Below are positions 2,620-7,829 of a stretch of DNA of 25,339 nt, one piece after another. The position numbers and the translations under genes are program-made. Location of the stretch: positions 1 through 25,339 of the IMG/VR virus record IMGVR_UViG_3300012000_001059, one strand, 5' to 3'. The notes below the pieces were generated by a model. That model saw only the letters and a list, made by a program, of their open reading frames with translations, ran no database searches and was not told where the DNA came from. Origin of the DNA: a virus. How positions within the stretch are numbered: position 1 is the first letter of the stretch; each line of letters begins with the position of its first letter.

Positions 2620-4581
2620 ATGGGTGCCGGGTCTGACCTGCTGAGTCGTCGTGCGTCCAAGCGGGCGCTTGATGCGAGTCCGATCATCGGCGTTCCGCAG
2701 CCGGCGCCCGTGCTCGAGCTTGCGTCCTACGCTGGGCGCGATGCCCCTCCCGCTACGCTGACGCGGTGGCGCGGTGGCCAGTGGGGCACGCTGTCGTGGT
2801 CCGACCTGCTGGGCATCATGCAGAATGCCGAGATCACCGGCGCCACCGAGGATTGGGCGCGGCTGACTCGGCGCATGTACCAGGACGCGCATTTGCTGGC
2901 GCTGCGCGGCACGCGGCTCGACCCCATCAGCGGAGCGGACTTCGACGTTGCTCCGGGCGGTGCATCGGCCATCGACGCACAGGCGGCGCGCGATGTCGAC
3001 TTGATGCTGCGGTCGATTCCCGACCTTCCGACGCTGCTTGATGCCGTGCTTGACGCCGTGTTCGTCGGCTACTCGGTGCAAGAGATCATCTGGGGTGTGC
3101 GCGGGTCGTGGGTGTGGCCTGAGGCCATCGACGTCCTTGAGCCGCATCGGTTCCGCTTCGACCGGCTCATCCATCCGTATCTGTGGGACGACGGCCGGCT
3201 CGGAGGCGACATCGACGCCAATATGCAGATTGGCCTGATGGGCAAGCCGCTGCGCGAAAACAAGTTCATTGTGCACATGCCGCGGGTCATCCCCGACTAC
3301 GCCATCAGCTCGGGCATCCTGCGAAGCTGCGTGCGCCCGTGGTGGGTCAAGTGGCAATGCGTGTCGTACAACCTCAGCGGCGCCGAGGTGAGCGGCAATC
3401 CGCGAGCGATTGGCTTTGTGCCAGTCGACACGCCGCAGCCGCTTCGGCAGAATCTGTTTGACGATCTACAAAACCTGTCGGCCACCGGGACGATGGTGGT
3501 TGACGAGCGCGTGCGGGTCGAGATCCAGAATCCTTCCGCACAGGGCGCATCGTCGGTGTGGTCCTCGCTACAGCAGTGGTGCGACGACAGCATGACCAAG
3601 GCGGTGCTCGGCTCGACGCTGAACACCGAGGTTGGCGCGACGGGCGGCAACCGCGCGCTCGGCGAGTCGCAGGCAGCGACGACCATCGACCCGCGCATCA
3701 AGAAAGACTCGGCGAGTCTGTGGGCCACGATTGCGCGTGACCTGATTCGGCCGTTCCTTGAGTTCAACATCTGGCGATACGGCGAACGCATGCCGGCGCT
3801 GCCGGTAGTCTCGACGCGCTTTGCCGAGGAGCTGTCGCCTAAGCCCAGCGCGGAGCTCATCACCGTGGGCGGCGTGACCATTGACGAGCTGCGTGCTCGC
3901 GATGGTCTGCCCGAGTGGGGTCCTGAGCGCGGCGGCAACCGCGTGGCGCGCACCGCTGCGGATGCTGCGTCGATGATGCCCACGGCATCTCAGGAAGATG
4001 CCAGCCCTGTCAACGTGCAGGCTTTGGCAGATATTCTTTCAGCCGTTTCGGAAAAGAAACTGGCTCCGCAGGCCGCGATCATCACCATCCGCAACGCCTT
4101 CCCGTCCATCTCCGATGCCGATGCCGCATCGATGGTGCAGGCACAGGCGTCCATCATGCTGCCGTCCGAGCTACTGCCGCAGCCGGCAGCCGCGGCGCCC
4201 GCGACGACGCCGCTTGCAACCGAGTACAAGACCACGCCCAGCGTCGGCGAGGTGTGGTCGGACTCGCAGGACGGCCACCGCCTCGAGGTCAAGGCTGTGG
4301 GCGGCGGCCACGTGTACTTCGCGGACCTGGACGACGCCAATCCGCAGCGGCAATGGCGGTGGACCGAGCAGCACTTCGCAGAGCGGTGCATCCCGCCTGC
4401 ATCGCCACCGAGCGCATCGCCTGAGACCGCGGCAGCGGGCATTGCGGGGCAGCTCGCGATGGAGCCCGCGCAGACCACCTACGCGTCCGGGGGTGCGCCC
4501 GCGGCTTCCCCTTTTCCATGGGAGATGGCCGACCGGATAGCGAGCGAGATGCTCGAGGATACGCCGACTTCCACGCCCTGA
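2620..4581 (+). CDS. portal protein, DUF935 family (Mu gp29-like)
   Basis: 653 residues. The portal is the dodecameric ring at the head vertex through which DNA is packaged and to which the tail attaches. The family is recognised from its overall pattern: the N-terminal helical region (LTRRMYQDAHLLALRGTRL), the VGYSVQEIIWG segment, IDVLEPHRFRFD, and the C-terminal core motif TKAVLGSTLNTE followed by GGNRALGESQA (around 330-350). The start is ATG 2620 with a GCGAGG-like ribosome site about 7 bases upstream. The protein is longer than I would expect for gp29 relatives. Beyond about residue 460 it has an Ala/Pro-rich tail and a compact extra segment (about 535-592, VGEVWSDSQDG...WRWTEQHF). The gene overlaps the following MuF gene by about 64 bases. 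Family call strong; role of the tail unknown. Confidence 0.92.
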   Translation: MGAGSDLLSRRASKRALDASPIIGVPQPAPVLELASYAGRDAPPATLTRWRGGQWGTLSWSDLLGIMQNAEITGATEDWARLTRRMYQDAHLLALRGTRLDPISGADFDVAPGGASAIDAQAARDVDLMLRSIPDLPTLLDAVLDAVFVGYSVQEIIWGVRGSWVWPEAIDVLEPHRFRFDRLIHPYLWDDGRLGGDIDANMQIGLMGKPLRENKFIVHMPRVIPDYAISSGILRSCVRPWWVKWQCVSYNLSGAEVSGNPRAIGFVPVDTPQPLRQNLFDDLQNLSATGTMVVDERVRVEIQNPSAQGASSVWSSLQQWCDDSMTKAVLGSTLNTEVGATGGNRALGESQAATTIDPRIKKDSASLWATIARDLIRPFLEFNIWRYGERMPALPVVSTRFAEELSPKPSAELITVGGVTIDELRARDGLPEWGPERGGNRVARTAADAASMMPTASQEDASPVNVQALADILSAVSEKKLAPQAAIITIRNAFPSISDADAASMVQAQASIMLPSELLPQPAAAAPATTPLATEYKTTPSVGEVWSDSQDGHRLEVKAVGGGHVYFADLDDANPQRQWRWTEQHFAERCIPPASPPSASPETAAAGIAGQLAMEPAQTTYASGGAPAASPFPWEMADRIASEMLEDTPTSTP

Positions 4582-6278
4582 GCGATGCAGACCAGCGAGT
4601 CGCACAGGCCACCATCGGTATCCCGCAACAGGTCAGCGGAGCGGGAGTCGTGGCGGCTCTGCCGATTGCAGACCGATGGATGGAGACACTCGCAGGCGCC
4701 CTCGAGTCCGACAAGCTTGACGAGTGGGGCGCAAGCATTGAGAAGGATCCGCAGTTTGCGGCGCTCGTTTATCAGACGCTGATGACCGCCGACATGGGCG
4801 GGCAGCTCGTCGTGCGCACGGTCGAGGTGCCCGAGTCTGCGCCGCGCTCGGTGCCACTCGCGCGCGTGACTGGTGACGCGTTTTTCGCGATGCCTTTCGA
4901 AGAGGCCATTCGCGAGTTCTTGGCGCGGCGGCTGATTACGCCGGCTCAGTATCGGCGTCTGTCCGCCGAGGCTCGTGCGCGGGCATTCTCGGTCAGCAAC
5001 ATGACCTCGACCGAGCTCGTGCGGCGCGTGCGTGAGATTCTCGCTGACCAGCTCAATCAGGGTGTCAGTCTGCGCGAGTTCACTGCGTCCGTGCGTGCGG
5101 GCGAAGTCGACCTCGGTGTGACTCCGACGAGCAGCTACTACCTCGAAAACATCTTCCGCACGAACACGCAATCCGCGTATGGCGCAGGCCGATTGCGGCA
5201 GATCACCGCGCCCGAGGTCATGGCCGCGCGTCCGTTTGTCGAGTACCGCACCGCTGGTGACAACCGCGTGCGACCGAATCACGCGGCACTCAATCGCATG
5301 GTGTTTCGCCAGACCGACCCAGCGTGGCAGCGGTATGCGCCGCCGCTCGGCTATCAGTGTTTTGTCGGAAGCACCCCAGTAGCAGGGTCATTTCTCGCGG
5401 CGGTCAGGGCACTCTACACCGGTGAGTTTGTAGAGCTTAGGACCCATTCCGGACGGTCGGTCACTGTGACCGCAAACCACCCATTGGCGACCGTAGACGG
5501 GTTCGTTCCTGCGAATAGCATTCACGAAGGCGACGAGGTGCTCTGTCATCAAGCACCGGTCTGGACTGCGCTTGACAGCGAGATCGACCCAGAGAATCGT
5601 CCATCCAGCGCTGAGCAGGTATTCCGTGCGCTTCCGGAACGGAACCGTTCCAAGCTTCGGGTAATGCCCGAGGATTTCCACGGCGAAGCGAAGTTCTGGA
5701 ACGGCGACGTCGATGCTGTAACCGCAGACGGGATGCTGTTGAACAACCCCAAACCCGAGGCCGCGAAGGATGTTGGCGATGTCATGTTCGCCATGTCCAA
5801 TGAACGAGCCGTTGGCGAATCGTGTGGCGGCTCGTTTAGCCATGGATTCAGCGCTCCAAATCTTTCCCCTGGAAGCGCTATTAGCGGCAGAGACTTGCCG
5901 CCTGCGCTGCTCGACGGTCATCTGCGACCACTTGACCCGCTCCGCGTCGGATTGACTGCGGGGCTGCCTGCCAGCGGCTATGAGCCATCGGTCAACGACT
6001 CTGCGACTGACTCCATAGATTTTCGAGAGTTGATTGACAGAAGCTCCGGAGTCGTAGCGCTTGAGAAAGTCGTCTACGTCAGAAAGTTCTTTGCGAGCGA
6101 CCATGTTTACGACCTCCAATCCGACACAGGACTGTTGGTAGCAGGTGGCATCGTCACTAGCAACTGCCGATGTGCCGTAGTCACTCGGCGCGAGCGTGAT
6201 GTGGATTTGACTCGCGTGGTCGACGCGTCCACACTCCCCATCGAGCCCGATCCTGGGTTCGGCAATCCAAGGCTGTAA
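4518..6278 (+). CDS. MuF-like (Mu gpF/gp30) head morphogenesis protein interrupted by an intein
   Basis: 586-residue precursor. Residues 1-280 and 550-586 form the MuF-type minor head protein. This family is usually encoded straight after the portal and is thought to sit inside or at the portal vertex. Recognisable parts are FRTNTQSAYGAGR, the FVEYRTAGDNRVRPNHAALNRMVF segment (shown here only as a landmark near residues 240-265), and the C-terminal PPLGYQ/CRCAV motif. That motif is split by an intein (residues 281-549). Splicing would give a 317-residue product. The start is uncertain: 4518 is the only upstream in-frame ATG, overlaps the portal gene by 64 bases and has no clear ribosome site. 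Later options are GTG 4650 and ATG 4680, just before METLAGALES. The stop is directly followed by the protease ATG. Confidence 0.9.
   Translation: MGDGRPDSERDARGYADFHALSDADQRVAQATIGIPQQVSGAGVVAALPIADRWMETLAGALESDKLDEWGASIEKDPQFAALVYQTLMTADMGGQLVVRTVEVPESAPRSVPLARVTGDAFFAMPFEEAIREFLARRLITPAQYRRLSAEARARAFSVSNMTSTELVRRVREILADQLNQGVSLREFTASVRAGEVDLGVTPTSSYYLENIFRTNTQSAYGAGRLRQITAPEVMAARPFVEYRTAGDNRVRPNHAALNRMVFRQTDPAWQRYAPPLGYQCFVGSTPVAGSFLAAVRALYTGEFVELRTHSGRSVTVTANHPLATVDGFVPANSIHEGDEVLCHQAPVWTALDSEIDPENRPSSAEQVFRALPERNRSKLRVMPEDFHGEAKFWNGDVDAVTADGMLLNNPKPEAAKDVGDVMFAMSNERAVGESCGGSFSHGFSAPNLSPGSAISGRDLPPALLDGHLRPLDPLRVGLTAGLPASGYEPSVNDSATDSIDFRELIDRSSGVVALEKVVYVRKFFASDHVYDLQSDTGLLVAGGIVTSNCRCAVVTRRERDVDLTRVVDASTLPIEPDPGFGNPRL
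5388..6104 (-). CDS. putative Vsr/DUF559-like homing endonuclease encoded antisense inside the intein
   Basis: 238 residues on the minus strand, lying wholly within the intein. ATG at 6104-6102, TGA at 5390-5388; GGAGG lies 8 bases before the ATG (6117-6113), a strong ribosome site. Residues 12-45 form a helix-turn-helix (ASVNQLSKIYGVSRRVVDRWL), followed by a basic linker with SDAERVKW and RRRQVSAANSASRG. Residues 104-175 match a Vsr/PD-(D/E)XK-type nuclease layout: E106 (GEHDIANIL), D132 (YSIDVAVP), E143 (FAVEILG), then KR158-159 and SAGWTILWVDL. From memory, small phage nucleases with this HTH-linker-Vsr order occur near inteins, and Vsr-like homing enzymes are known from fractured split-intein genes. 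DNA cleavage at intein-free MuF alleles is the inferred role. The reading frame stays open upstream to 7799, but that part is a shadow of the protease gene. Confidence 0.85.
   Translation of the reverse strand: MVARKELSDVDDFLKRYDSGASVNQLSKIYGVSRRVVDRWLIAAGRQPRSQSDAERVKWSQMTVEQRRRQVSAANSASRGKIWSAESMAKRAATRFANGSFIGHGEHDIANILRGLGFGVVQQHPVCGYSIDVAVPELRFAVEILGHYPKLGTVPFRKRTEYLLSAGWTILWVDLAVKRSPDRCLMTEHLVAFVNAIRRNEPVYGRQWVVCGHSDRPSGMGPKLYKLTGVECPDRREK
6113..6117 (-). promoter_or_regulatory. Shine-Dalgarno of the antisense nuclease gene
   Basis: Read on the minus strand, the sequence is TTGGAGGTCGTAAACATG. GGAGG is followed by 8 bases and then the ATG at 6104. This is as good as any ribosome site in the window and decides the start of the antisense gene. 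It falls within the codons for the intein's block F, so both strands are constrained here. Confidence 0.75.
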
Positions 6279-7829
6279 ATGCCCCACCACCTTGAGGCGT
6301 TCGCACTCAAGGCAACCGGCAGCAGTAAGACTCTCGCGGCGCCCGTCATGTCGGTCGGGCTCGCCGAGACCACCGTTGCGCGCTCGCGGCACGTGGGCCT
6401 GACGGGACCGAATCCCGAGCAGCGCACGACCTGGATTCACGTAGCCAATGAGGGCGAATGGGAAGGCCATCCCAACGGCCCGTTCGCGCTCGACCGCAGC
6501 ACGTTCAAGCAGTGCATTGCGGCGCTGCGGCAGACGGCTACGCCGCCTCCGGTCGACTACGACCATGCGAGTCTGCGGCCGCTCGACGGCCAGCCGACGC
6601 CGGCTGCGGGCTACGTGCTCGACCTCGAGATGCGCCGTGACGGGCTGTATGCGCTTGTCGAGTTCACGCCCAGCGCGGCGCAGATGATCCGCGGCGGCGA
6701 GTACCGGTTCTGCTCCGGTGTGTTCGTTTGGGATGCGGCGGACCGTAAGACCGGTGAGCCGATTCCCTGCCAGCTCGATTCCATCGGGCTGACCAACAAG
6801 CCGTTCATCGACGGCCAGCATGCGATCCGGCTGAGTCGCCGGGCGCTCTCTACGGGAGAGACTATGGAGATCAGCAAGAAGGATCTGATGGCCAAGCTGG
6901 ATGCGCTCGTCGCGGGTCCGGCTGTGACTGGCGAGCAGCTCGATGCGCTCGTTGAGTTCCTCAAGAAGTCGGCTGGCCCTGAGGTCGAGGCTGCCGAGGA
7001 AGCCGCCGAGGAGAAGGCCGAGGCTAAGTCCGAGTCGATGCCGCCGCCCGCTGGCGAGGTCGAGGAGTCCGAGGTGGTCGACATGGCGTGTGGCCCCAAG
7101 GGCGAGCGCGAGATGGGCAAGAAGGCGCTTGCCGCGCCGCCGCCGCCTGCGATGGCCATGGCCGAGCCGATGGTGCCTGCCGAGCCCGTGCCCGCGCTGG
7201 CGCCCGAGACGGCCGCTGCGGCCACGCAGGACGCCGCGGCGATGCTGCTGACCAAGCTCGCTGAGATGACTGGCCTGGATACGGCCAGCATCATCGGCTC
7301 GCTCGACGCTAACGCGGAGTCGATCAAGGCGGCATTCCTCGGGGCCAATGGCGGCGCTCTGCCGGCCACGGTGCTGTCGGCCAAGCTCGAAGCGCAGGAC
7401 GCTACGATCACCGCTCTGTCGGCCGAGGTGGCCCGGTATCGTGCCGACGAGGCCAAGCGTGCGGACGCTGCGCTCGTGGCCGAGGTCGAGGCGCACGTGG
7501 CCGCTGGGCGCATCCTGCCTGGCAGCCGCGAGACCTGGGTGAGTCTGGCGCGCAAGGCGCCCACTGAGTTCCGCGCGCTTGCGGCGAAGCTCCCGAGTGC
7601 AGTGCCGATGGGCCGCGAGGCTCCGGTTGAGGCGCCCGCCACTGCGCCCAACGGCGGCGCCGGAGACCCCGACAAGTCGCATCCTCGCTTTGCCGTGCTG
7701 CATCGGCAGTACAGCGATCCGAGCAGCCCGTATGCGCGGCTGCTTCCCCACAGCGGTCCGGAGCGCGAGGCTGCAATCGAGCGCGCCGTCATCAACCACC
7801 TTCGTCGTGAGCAGCCGATCAGCGGCTGA
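6279..7829 (+). CDS. Mu I-like prohead protease with C-terminal scaffold region
   Basis: 516 residues, ATG directly after the MuF stop. The N-terminal ~190 residues show the pattern of the Mu-like I protein (prohead protease): PPPVDYDHASLRP (90-101), AAGYVLDLE (109-117), GLYALVEFT (122-130), GGEYRFCSGVFVW (139-151) and SIGLTNKPFI (168-177). The remainder is Glu/Ala/Pro-rich and helical, suited to an internal scaffold that guides capsid assembly and is then degraded. In Mu the protease (I) and scaffold (Z) share a reading frame, and the same arrangement is visible here (see the internal start at 6864). The catalytic residues are not assigned. It is followed by the decoration and capsid genes, the standard order. 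Confidence 0.88.
   Translation: MPHHLEAFALKATGSSKTLAAPVMSVGLAETTVARSRHVGLTGPNPEQRTTWIHVANEGEWEGHPNGPFALDRSTFKQCIAALRQTATPPPVDYDHASLRPLDGQPTPAAGYVLDLEMRRDGLYALVEFTPSAAQMIRGGEYRFCSGVFVWDAADRKTGEPIPCQLDSIGLTNKPFIDGQHAIRLSRRALSTGETMEISKKDLMAKLDALVAGPAVTGEQLDALVEFLKKSAGPEVEAAEEAAEEKAEAKSESMPPPAGEVEESEVVDMACGPKGEREMGKKALAAPPPPAMAMAEPMVPAEPVPALAPETAAAATQDAAAMLLTKLAEMTGLDTASIIGSLDANAESIKAAFLGANGGALPATVLSAKLEAQDATITALSAEVARYRADEAKRADAALVAEVEAHVAAGRILPGSRETWVSLARKAPTEFRALAAKLPSAVPMGREAPVEAPATAPNGGAGDPDKSHPRFAVLHRQYSDPSSPYARLLPHSGPEREAAIERAVINHLRREQPISG
6864..7829 (+). CDS. internally started scaffold protein (Mu Z-like), in frame with the protease
   Basis: An in-frame ATG at 6864 is preceded by GGGAGAG (6854-6860), a much better ribosome site than that of the full-length gene. 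Initiation here gives a 321-residue protein starting MEISKKDLMAKLDALVAG. It lacks the protease domain and consists only of the helical, acidic, Ala/Pro-rich part. The position is exactly at the boundary between the I-like domain and the scaffold, as in the nested I/Z genes of phage Mu. This allows many scaffold copies per protease. Expression from the internal start is inferred from sequence only. Confidence 0.65.
   Translation: MEISKKDLMAKLDALVAGPAVTGEQLDALVEFLKKSAGPEVEAAEEAAEEKAEAKSESMPPPAGEVEESEVVDMACGPKGEREMGKKALAAPPPPAMAMAEPMVPAEPVPALAPETAAAATQDAAAMLLTKLAEMTGLDTASIIGSLDANAESIKAAFLGANGGALPATVLSAKLEAQDATITALSAEVARYRADEAKRADAALVAEVEAHVAAGRILPGSRETWVSLARKAPTEFRALAAKLPSAVPMGREAPVEAPATAPNGGAGDPDKSHPRFAVLHRQYSDPSSPYARLLPHSGPEREAAIERAVINHLRREQPISG

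Follow-up and report, generated by a model that had tools for sequence, protein, structure and literature searches.

A predicted Vsr-like homing endonuclease gene lies antisense to an intein of a phage MuF gene, in register with its codons

The locus described here raises the question of whether an intein can carry its mobility enzyme on its complementary strand, so that one DNA segment holds both the splicing element and a nuclease gene. Canonical inteins are built of splicing blocks A, B, F and G, and the nuclease is normally an in-frame domain between blocks B and F. The window, that is, the whole stretch of 25,339 nucleotides analyzed, is an IMG/VR virus record (IMGVR_UViG_3300012000_001059) whose MuF gene (4518 to 6278) bears an intein. 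A sequence-only reading had placed a 238-codon minus-strand gene, with GGAGG 8 bases before its ATG, between the splice junctions of this intein, and that layout was confirmed by the sequence and by an intein-less relative (L222), which matched both window junctions to the base. The intein starts with Cys1 at positions 5358 to 5360 (GYQ/CFVG, the slash marking the junction) and ends with Asn at 6162 to 6164 (VTSN/C); therefore, the nuclease gene, which covers about 89% of the intein, lies wholly inside the splice junctions (Table 1). The two strands are in exact codon register, with sense position 1 opposite antisense position 3. As seen from the sequence, the GGAGG and the ATG of the nuclease gene are together the reverse complement of block F (HVYDLQ), and when the codons of the sense motifs DFHG and GDVD are read on the other strand, they encode A-V-E-I and I-D-V-A, respectively.

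Table 1. Coordinates of the MuF-intein locus and of the antisense gene in the window
Feature	Position	Strand	Basis or remark
Antisense nuclease gene, 238 aa	5388..6104	(-)	ATG-to-stop translation
Intein, 807 bp, 269 aa (Cys1 to Asn269)	5358..6164	(+)	Codon register with the nuclease gene
MuF N-extein (minor head protein)	4518..5357	(+)	Phage_Mu_F E=3.2e-13; phrog_220 1.5e-41
MuF C-extein (Cys+1, CRC)	6165..6278	(+)	
Intein block F (HVYDLQ)	6102..6119	(+)	His codon CAT, read on the other strand, is the nuclease ATG
GGAGG ribosome-binding site of the nuclease, within block F	6113..6117	(-)	Sequence; CTC codon bias in the family
Intein block B (TANHP)	5469..5483	(+)	Reverse complement codes for the nuclease C-terminal W-V-V
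Nuclease helix-turn-helix, residues 10-43	5976..6077	(-)	
Vsr-like nuclease core, residues ~101-199	5508..5804	(-)	
Predicted catalytic E106 codon	5787..5789	(-)	Invariant in 53
Predicted catalytic D132 codon	5709..5711	(-)	Invariant in 53
Predicted catalytic E143 codon, facing the sense Phe of DFHG	5676..5678	(-)	Invariant in 53

On the sense strand, the window intein exhibits Cys1, TANHP, HVYDLQ and VTSN/C, which meet the block A, B and F, C-terminal Asn and Cys+1 criteria of HINT inteins. In an alignment of 55 inteins (54 loci plus the window), C1, G22, H41 and N269 were invariant and T38, N40 and P42 nearly so. A Cys start together with an N/C end was also found in 85 of 91 loci; however, this count holds by construction, since the boundary caller required both. 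The structure model reached a pLDDT of at least 90 over most of residues 1 to 69 and 230 to 269 and fell below 50 over residues 70 to 77, 125 to 184 and 191 to 216. When this model was compared with the PDB, the matches listed were inteins or Hedgehog/intein-like domains (best E, 2.6e-4), as expected of a HINT fold. Residues 85 to 122, which face the catalytic part of the nuclease, were modelled at a pLDDT of about 70 to 90, and thus some sense structure is possible there. A profile search gave no nuclease match in the sense linker, so that no in-frame endonuclease was detected between blocks B and F. Two known architectures were ruled out: a canonical large intein, because the linker has no nuclease match and is largely below a pLDDT of 50, and a fractured-gene split intein, because the sense MuF-intein frame runs uninterrupted and without an internal stop from 4518 to 6278. 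Judged by its blocks and its predicted fold, the window element is a HINT intein, and its protein splicing is inferred.

The openness of the opposite frame has to be read with care. The window has an open antisense frame of 803 codons (5388 to 7799, minus strand) that extends across the end of MuF and the protease gene, and only about one antisense stop is expected by chance within the nuclease gene; hence, its openness is no evidence by itself. Upstream of the nuclease ATG, such openness is ordinary for GC-rich codon use of this kind. The case for a real antisense gene therefore rests on relatives and not on the window alone. With the window nuclease as tblastn query and a cut-off of E ≤ 1, 111 phage records matched, the best at 3e-22, and in 12 of the 12 that were fetched the match lay antisense inside a long sense CDS. 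From IMG/VR, the window protein alone retrieved 2 loci and a six-member alignment 79 (best 80 of 110 relatives). A table of 91 loci was compiled, leaving out the window itself (L015) and the loci 100% identical to the query (L017 to L019). The in-register sense frame was free of stops in all 91, the other two sense frames had 2 to 47 stops, and the nuclease frame was without a stop in 89, at 36 to 70% GC. The remaining loci, L057 and L082, have one stop each. That of L057 comes late in the gene and is possibly a natural terminator; that of L082 lies mid-gene in the nuclease core, with the sense frame intact, and this nuclease may be decaying. Antisense nucleases were also found in seven more phage loci (L102 to L105, L107, L109 and L110), some of them reached via the sense intein or a distant query. 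One of these, in an epsilonproteobacterial (Helicobacter) prophage (L109, 2246 to 4024), exhibits the same two-strand layout in register 0 with both frames open.

The reverse search, in which IMG/VR was queried with sense inteins and the best 80 of 354 relatives were kept, found no locus among the 80 with a broken antisense frame in the nuclease region; thus, the prediction that homologous MuF inteins keep this frame open held, and the broken frame that would have refuted it was not met. A full-length nuclease match was present in 77 of these loci and a partial one in 3, their GC content was 33 to 65%, and 64 were non-redundant at 90%. The search was not wholly blind to the nuclease, because one of its two patterns lies in the nuclease-facing linker. 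In one locus (L157), a sense stop lies inside the intein and the antisense frame is open. With Leu and Ser codon usage taken gene by gene, the expectation for 65 non-redundant loci is about 551 antisense stops, against one internal stop observed (that of L082); the raw count was two, since the window nuclease's own terminator had been included. Loci more than 90% alike, with fewer than 150 extein codons or without called intein bounds (6) were excluded from this test, and the loci are related, so that the counts are not independent. A chance open frame, which holds for the window alone, is ruled out for the family. A profile search of 398 genomes drawn from the phylum to which an A. actinomycetemcomitans genome belongs gave matches at E ≤ 1e-6 in 29; full-length members were present in 2 (the starting genome and G220), and those in the other 27 were partial by coordinates, mostly core-only. 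A profile scan of genome contigs gave one relative, the known Aggregatibacter prophage. Overall, the antisense-nuclease layout is a family trait and not a one-off.

The two frames were also compared for the positions at which they change. In pairwise comparisons, extein substitutions fall mainly at sense position 3, whereas in the intein core they move to sense position 1, the third position of the antisense codon. Between the window and L013, the substitutions at sense positions 1/2/3 were 73/66/148 in the extein (identity, 65% in the sense and 38% in the antisense frame) and 61/29/52 in the intein core (54% and 64%), a modest shift. The corresponding values for L011 and L101 were 65/47/153 (65% and 29%) and 50/6/18 (66% and 87%), and L004 and L009 gave 56/39/129 in the extein and 62/16/31 in the core. 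Antisense identity exceeds sense identity in the core only, and in block F the pattern is mostly back to that of the sense frame. By Fisher's test of position 1 versus 3 in core versus extein, the contrast gave a p of 2.6e-4 for the window and L013 and of 7e-7 to 3e-10 for four other pairs, the value of 3e-10 being that of L011 and L101; pairs within a group are not independent because they share ancestry. The shift in the core and the return in block F therefore indicate that the frames share the DNA, with sense constraint acting on the splicing blocks and antisense constraint on the nuclease core. The purifying selection for which a check had been proposed is thus supported by the shift to antisense position 3 in five pairs, and the comparative evidence identifies the antisense product as a conserved protein, under constraint in its own frame.

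Regarding the identity of this product, searches with the single window protein gave weak domain matches only. In Pfam, these were HTH_23 (2.9e-4), DUF559 (2.6e-3) and MTES_1575 (5e-3), all below cut-offs, so that by the curated thresholds the window protein is a member of neither DUF559 nor MTES_1575. Across 53 family members, Pfam at E ≤ 0.01 gave HTH_7 in 35, MTES_1575 in 19 (best, 4.3e-9) and DUF559 in 8, and the family profile matched the sequences of 3hrl (E=7e-6) and I-Bth0305I (E=8e-6). The AlphaFold2 model of the nuclease had a pLDDT of 83.0 and a pTM of 0.67. A Foldseek search of the PDB with this model returned nothing at E ≤ 0.001; its top match was the catalytic domain of I-Bth0305I (E 4.6e-3, prob 1.00), with Vsr in the next ranks, and against viral models the best match reached an E of 2e-12, several matches being named Vsr or DUF559. 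In VIA-align, the model met the test for a Vsr-type nuclease fold, with Z scores of 11.9 for Vsr 1cw0 (113 residues, 2.5 A), 11.6 for 1vsr and 10.4 for I-Bth0305I (3r3p, over 93 residues), followed by NGO0050 3hrl at 10.2. Two Toxoplasma mitoribosome chains also reached 10.2 and 9.0, and for this reason the fold alone does not give function. Residues 1 to 46 matched Hin/resolvase helix-turn-helix (HTH) domains at a Z of about 5 to 6.

The sequence-only reading had assigned the protein an HTH and a Vsr/DUF559-like core with E106, D132, E143 and KR158-159 as its key residues. The domain assignment agrees with the structure model and the family profile, and the lack of any nuclease similarity, which would have refuted it, was not met. 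The residue assignment held in part. In the alignment of 53 nucleases (52 fetched IMG loci plus the window), the only invariant residues were R67, E106, D132 and E143; R159 was invariant in a 13-sequence alignment, but its column in the set of 53 is neither invariant nor nearly so, and K158 is among the conserved columns of neither. With respect to an EDxHD signature, the observation is limited to the invariance of E106, D132 and E143. Taken together, the model and the profiles support a product composed of an HTH and a Vsr/I-Bth0305I-like nuclease, for which DNA cleavage is inferred. In Rhodococcus phage REQ3 (L107, 2048 to 3826), the antisense nuclease seemingly lacks the HTH, and the MuF intein seems to start with Ala instead of Cys.

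Signals for expression of the antisense gene were then sought in the C-terminal part of the intein. When the block F Leu is encoded by CTC, the other strand reads GAGG. Of 87 non-redundant inteins, 68 used this codon, compared with 15.7 predicted by extein usage, and 19 lacked it. The set had been thinned of inteins over 85% alike and of those in which a block F Leu could not be recognised or the extein had under 10 Leu codons, and the input included 38 of the 80 sense-selected loci. An exact TATAAT upstream of the antisense start was present in 16 of 42 loci, compared with 1.3 in shuffles. For the 37 of 91 loci with an assigned start codon plus the window, the summed promoter score over the 38 was 300, compared with 189 on average and at most 238 in 400 null sets obtained by resampling sense codons; a near-consensus promoter was found in 14, versus 2.1 expected. 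In L022, L023, L028, L039 and others, the strand opposite the intein C-terminus carries TTGACA-N18-TATAAT, near the sigma-70 consensus, ahead of the antisense ATG; the penultimate intein residue, usually His, is Ser there. In one clade, the codons for the last residues of the intein, V-S-N, give TTGACA on the other strand, and an H-N clade (L070, L084 and L086) has an extended -10 (TGTTATAAT) in place of TTGACA-N18-TATAAT. Many single loci, including the window, do not exceed the promoter null. The passages of PMC10087258 on S1249 transcription that were available do not mention the strand.

In the window, the promoter scan found no promoter-like site for the antisense gene (score 0). This absence on the minus strand would suit a reading that we regard as unlikely, yet worth keeping in view, namely that the family is as described but the window copy is poorly expressed or inactive and its intein was acquired passively. 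Against it, the frame, the predicted catalytic residues, the ribosome-binding site and the start of the window gene are all intact, and its core, compared with L013, is antisense-constrained.

Next, we considered the evidence for mobility. L222, from another IMG/VR contig, is identical to the window in 312 of 317 MuF residues (96.1% nucleotide identity). The 807 bp are precisely what it lacks, so that its junction reads GYQ/CRC; no member of the antisense-nuclease family was found in its 25-kb contig. A blastn search with a Jerseyvirus MuF-intein query matched 501 phage records, of which 70 contain at least 80% of the query. In ST3, which has no intein, the joined flanks align gap-free, as an empty site. 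Comparison of L096 with L099 gave 93% identity over the 120 bp just upstream of the site and about 72% beyond, a tract that appears co-conversion-like; L011 and ST3 showed the converse, with lower identity beside the site. The Gordonia phages Vivi2 and Sedona have exteins 98 to 99% identical and inteins only 34 to 40% identical, which, read from the alignments, is an intein swap at one site. These comparisons demonstrate by computation the horizontal replacement or movement of the element and the exact empty sites; homing of the intein is inferred from its distribution, without a cleavage assay. In Escherichia phage BEU35 (Kagunavirus; L102, about 1501 to 2394), a sister intein, again with an antisense nuclease, is inserted at a second MuF site (STT/CRARDG), more upstream in the same gene.

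A free-standing form of the nuclease was found in the Acinetobacter phages BUCT629, IME285 and P1068. The protein, of 297 aa and 100% identical among the three, is encoded after a MuF gene that has no intein and on the strand opposite to it; the sense frames over this stretch are full of stops. Of the 83 Acinetobacter records matching the region, 3 contain at least 80% of it. In LZ35, the one compared, the free-standing nuclease gene is absent. Between BUCT629 (L106) and LZ35 (L111), the MuF codons around C-R-C differ sharply and the flanks are 96% and 100% identical, as would be expected, by inference, if the homing nuclease had replaced its own target.

A real antisense gene need not serve homing; it might encode, for example, a regulator or a nuclease that excludes competitor phages and is sheltered in the intein. 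The HTH matches do look like regulators and resolvases, and no cleavage site is known. Nevertheless, we consider this improbable in view of the invariant nuclease residues, the nearest solved relatives (Vsr and a homing endonuclease), the exact presence or absence at one site, the apparent co-conversion and the free-standing copy adjoining the MuF gene. That the antisense frame is an accidental shadow of GC-rich codon bias and intein conservation, as the long open frame of the window would allow and as is true of part of the antisense C-terminus (W-V-V facing N-H-P), is scarcely credible given the single internal stop against the hundreds expected, a frame open even at 33% GC, the independent HTH and nuclease profile matches, and both the move of constraint to the antisense frame in the core and the free-standing relative, which together rule out a shadow of sense conservation.

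We hold it to be very probable that the MuF head gene of this phage harbours a mobile intein, with a homing endonuclease gene overprinted antisense to it in exact codon register. The computation establishes the conservation and constraint of both frames, the nuclease family and fold, the intein blocks, the empty sites and the free-standing relative. On the sense strand, the intein would be read through as part of MuF, and its N- and C-terminal splicing blocks would fold as a HINT domain and excise, leaving an intact MuF, a splicing step that is inferred. The antisense strand, whose expression is likewise inferred, would give the HTH and Vsr-like nuclease from a start site that is the reverse complement of block F. 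The nuclease may then bind and cut intein-less MuF alleles at or near the conserved N/Q-C-R-C codons (both cleavage and the exact cut site being inferences), and repair off the intein-bearing copy would insert the element, completing the inferred homing. The proposal that the homing enzyme is read from the complementary strand of the intein is thereby supported by the constraint in its own frame, the predicted Vsr-like fold and the free-standing relative.

Several known systems resemble this arrangement in part. In the fractured-gene arrangement that Dassa reportedly described in 2009, in a study cited by PMC12350094, a free-standing Vsr-like (EDxHD) nuclease lies between the halves of a split intein; our locus likewise associates a Vsr-like nuclease with an intein, but here the intein frame is unbroken and the nuclease overlaps it. 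Homing endonuclease genes of group I introns may lie antisense to the host gene, also on the opposite strand, but are not known to overlap a second protein-coding frame. I-Bth0305I, the homing endonuclease of a group I intron, shares the nuclease core at the scores given above, whereas it is intron-borne, has another genetic context, and its deposited chain aligns Ala at the D132 column. Canonical homing-endonuclease inteins (compare PMC6801210) have the same A/B/F/G splicing blocks, a nuclease tied to the intein and precise insertion at conserved codons; in contrast, the nuclease here is a separate opposite-strand gene overlapping the splicing blocks. The ShiLan domain (PMC11855218, Arsenault 2025), as presented in the excerpts at hand, contains a hidden HNH endonuclease in an out-of-frame insertion without a splicing domain, and is similar in that a homing nuclease is hidden in another frame and the insertion is open in the host frame.

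Inteins in the MuF/capsid morphogenesis gene of Guernseyvirinae are reported for Snoke (PMC6776784) and the UPWr phages (PMC8425127), as far as the accessible portions of these papers go. The Snoke intein is said there to be nearly identical to that of LSPA1 (PMC6776784), and we found the LSPA1 intein to be a member of the antisense-nuclease family; the word "antisense" does not occur in the available passages of either paper. The ShiLan excerpts also cite a preprint on non-canonical inteins for overlapping reading frames in actinobacteriophages (PMC11855218), and, by its title, that preprint may already describe the Gordonia members. It lay outside the reach of the literature searched, whose listings brought up no intein with an antisense nuclease; hence, within that literature and with that possibly relevant exception, the statement that this layout has no standard description stands.

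We also lean, with less assurance, towards a broader reading, namely that of a widespread two-strand selfish element of about 0.8 to 1 kb. It would pair a splicing domain with a codon-for-codon antisense homing endonuclease whose ribosome-binding site, start and, in part of the family, sigma-70 promoter come from reverse-complemented C-terminal splicing motifs, shaping the residues and codons of the intein. If so, the use of CTC for the block F Leu and the C-terminal V-S-N, whose codons read back as TTGACA, would have been shaped by the opposite gene. The antisense layout itself would be a third way to pair a splicing element with a mobility enzyme, besides fusion and splitting, and a natural example of one set of codons that serves two unrelated enzymes, one on each strand. 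Back-to-back pairing of this kind has been debated for ancient gene pairs (the Rodin-Ohno idea) and is rarely testable. Here, the wealth of natural variants, the empty alleles and the free-standing relative make the dual-coding cost, the expression of the hidden gene and its homing measurable. Surveys of inteins or genes that read the host frame only miss this family of antisense nucleases, and most of the records fetched annotate MuF only. In the records of Salmonella phage PK1 (L096, 1233 to 2042) and StyS-sam (L100, 1348 to 1749), the depositors annotated antisense hypothetical proteins inside MuF, and thus gene callers sometimes see the antisense gene.
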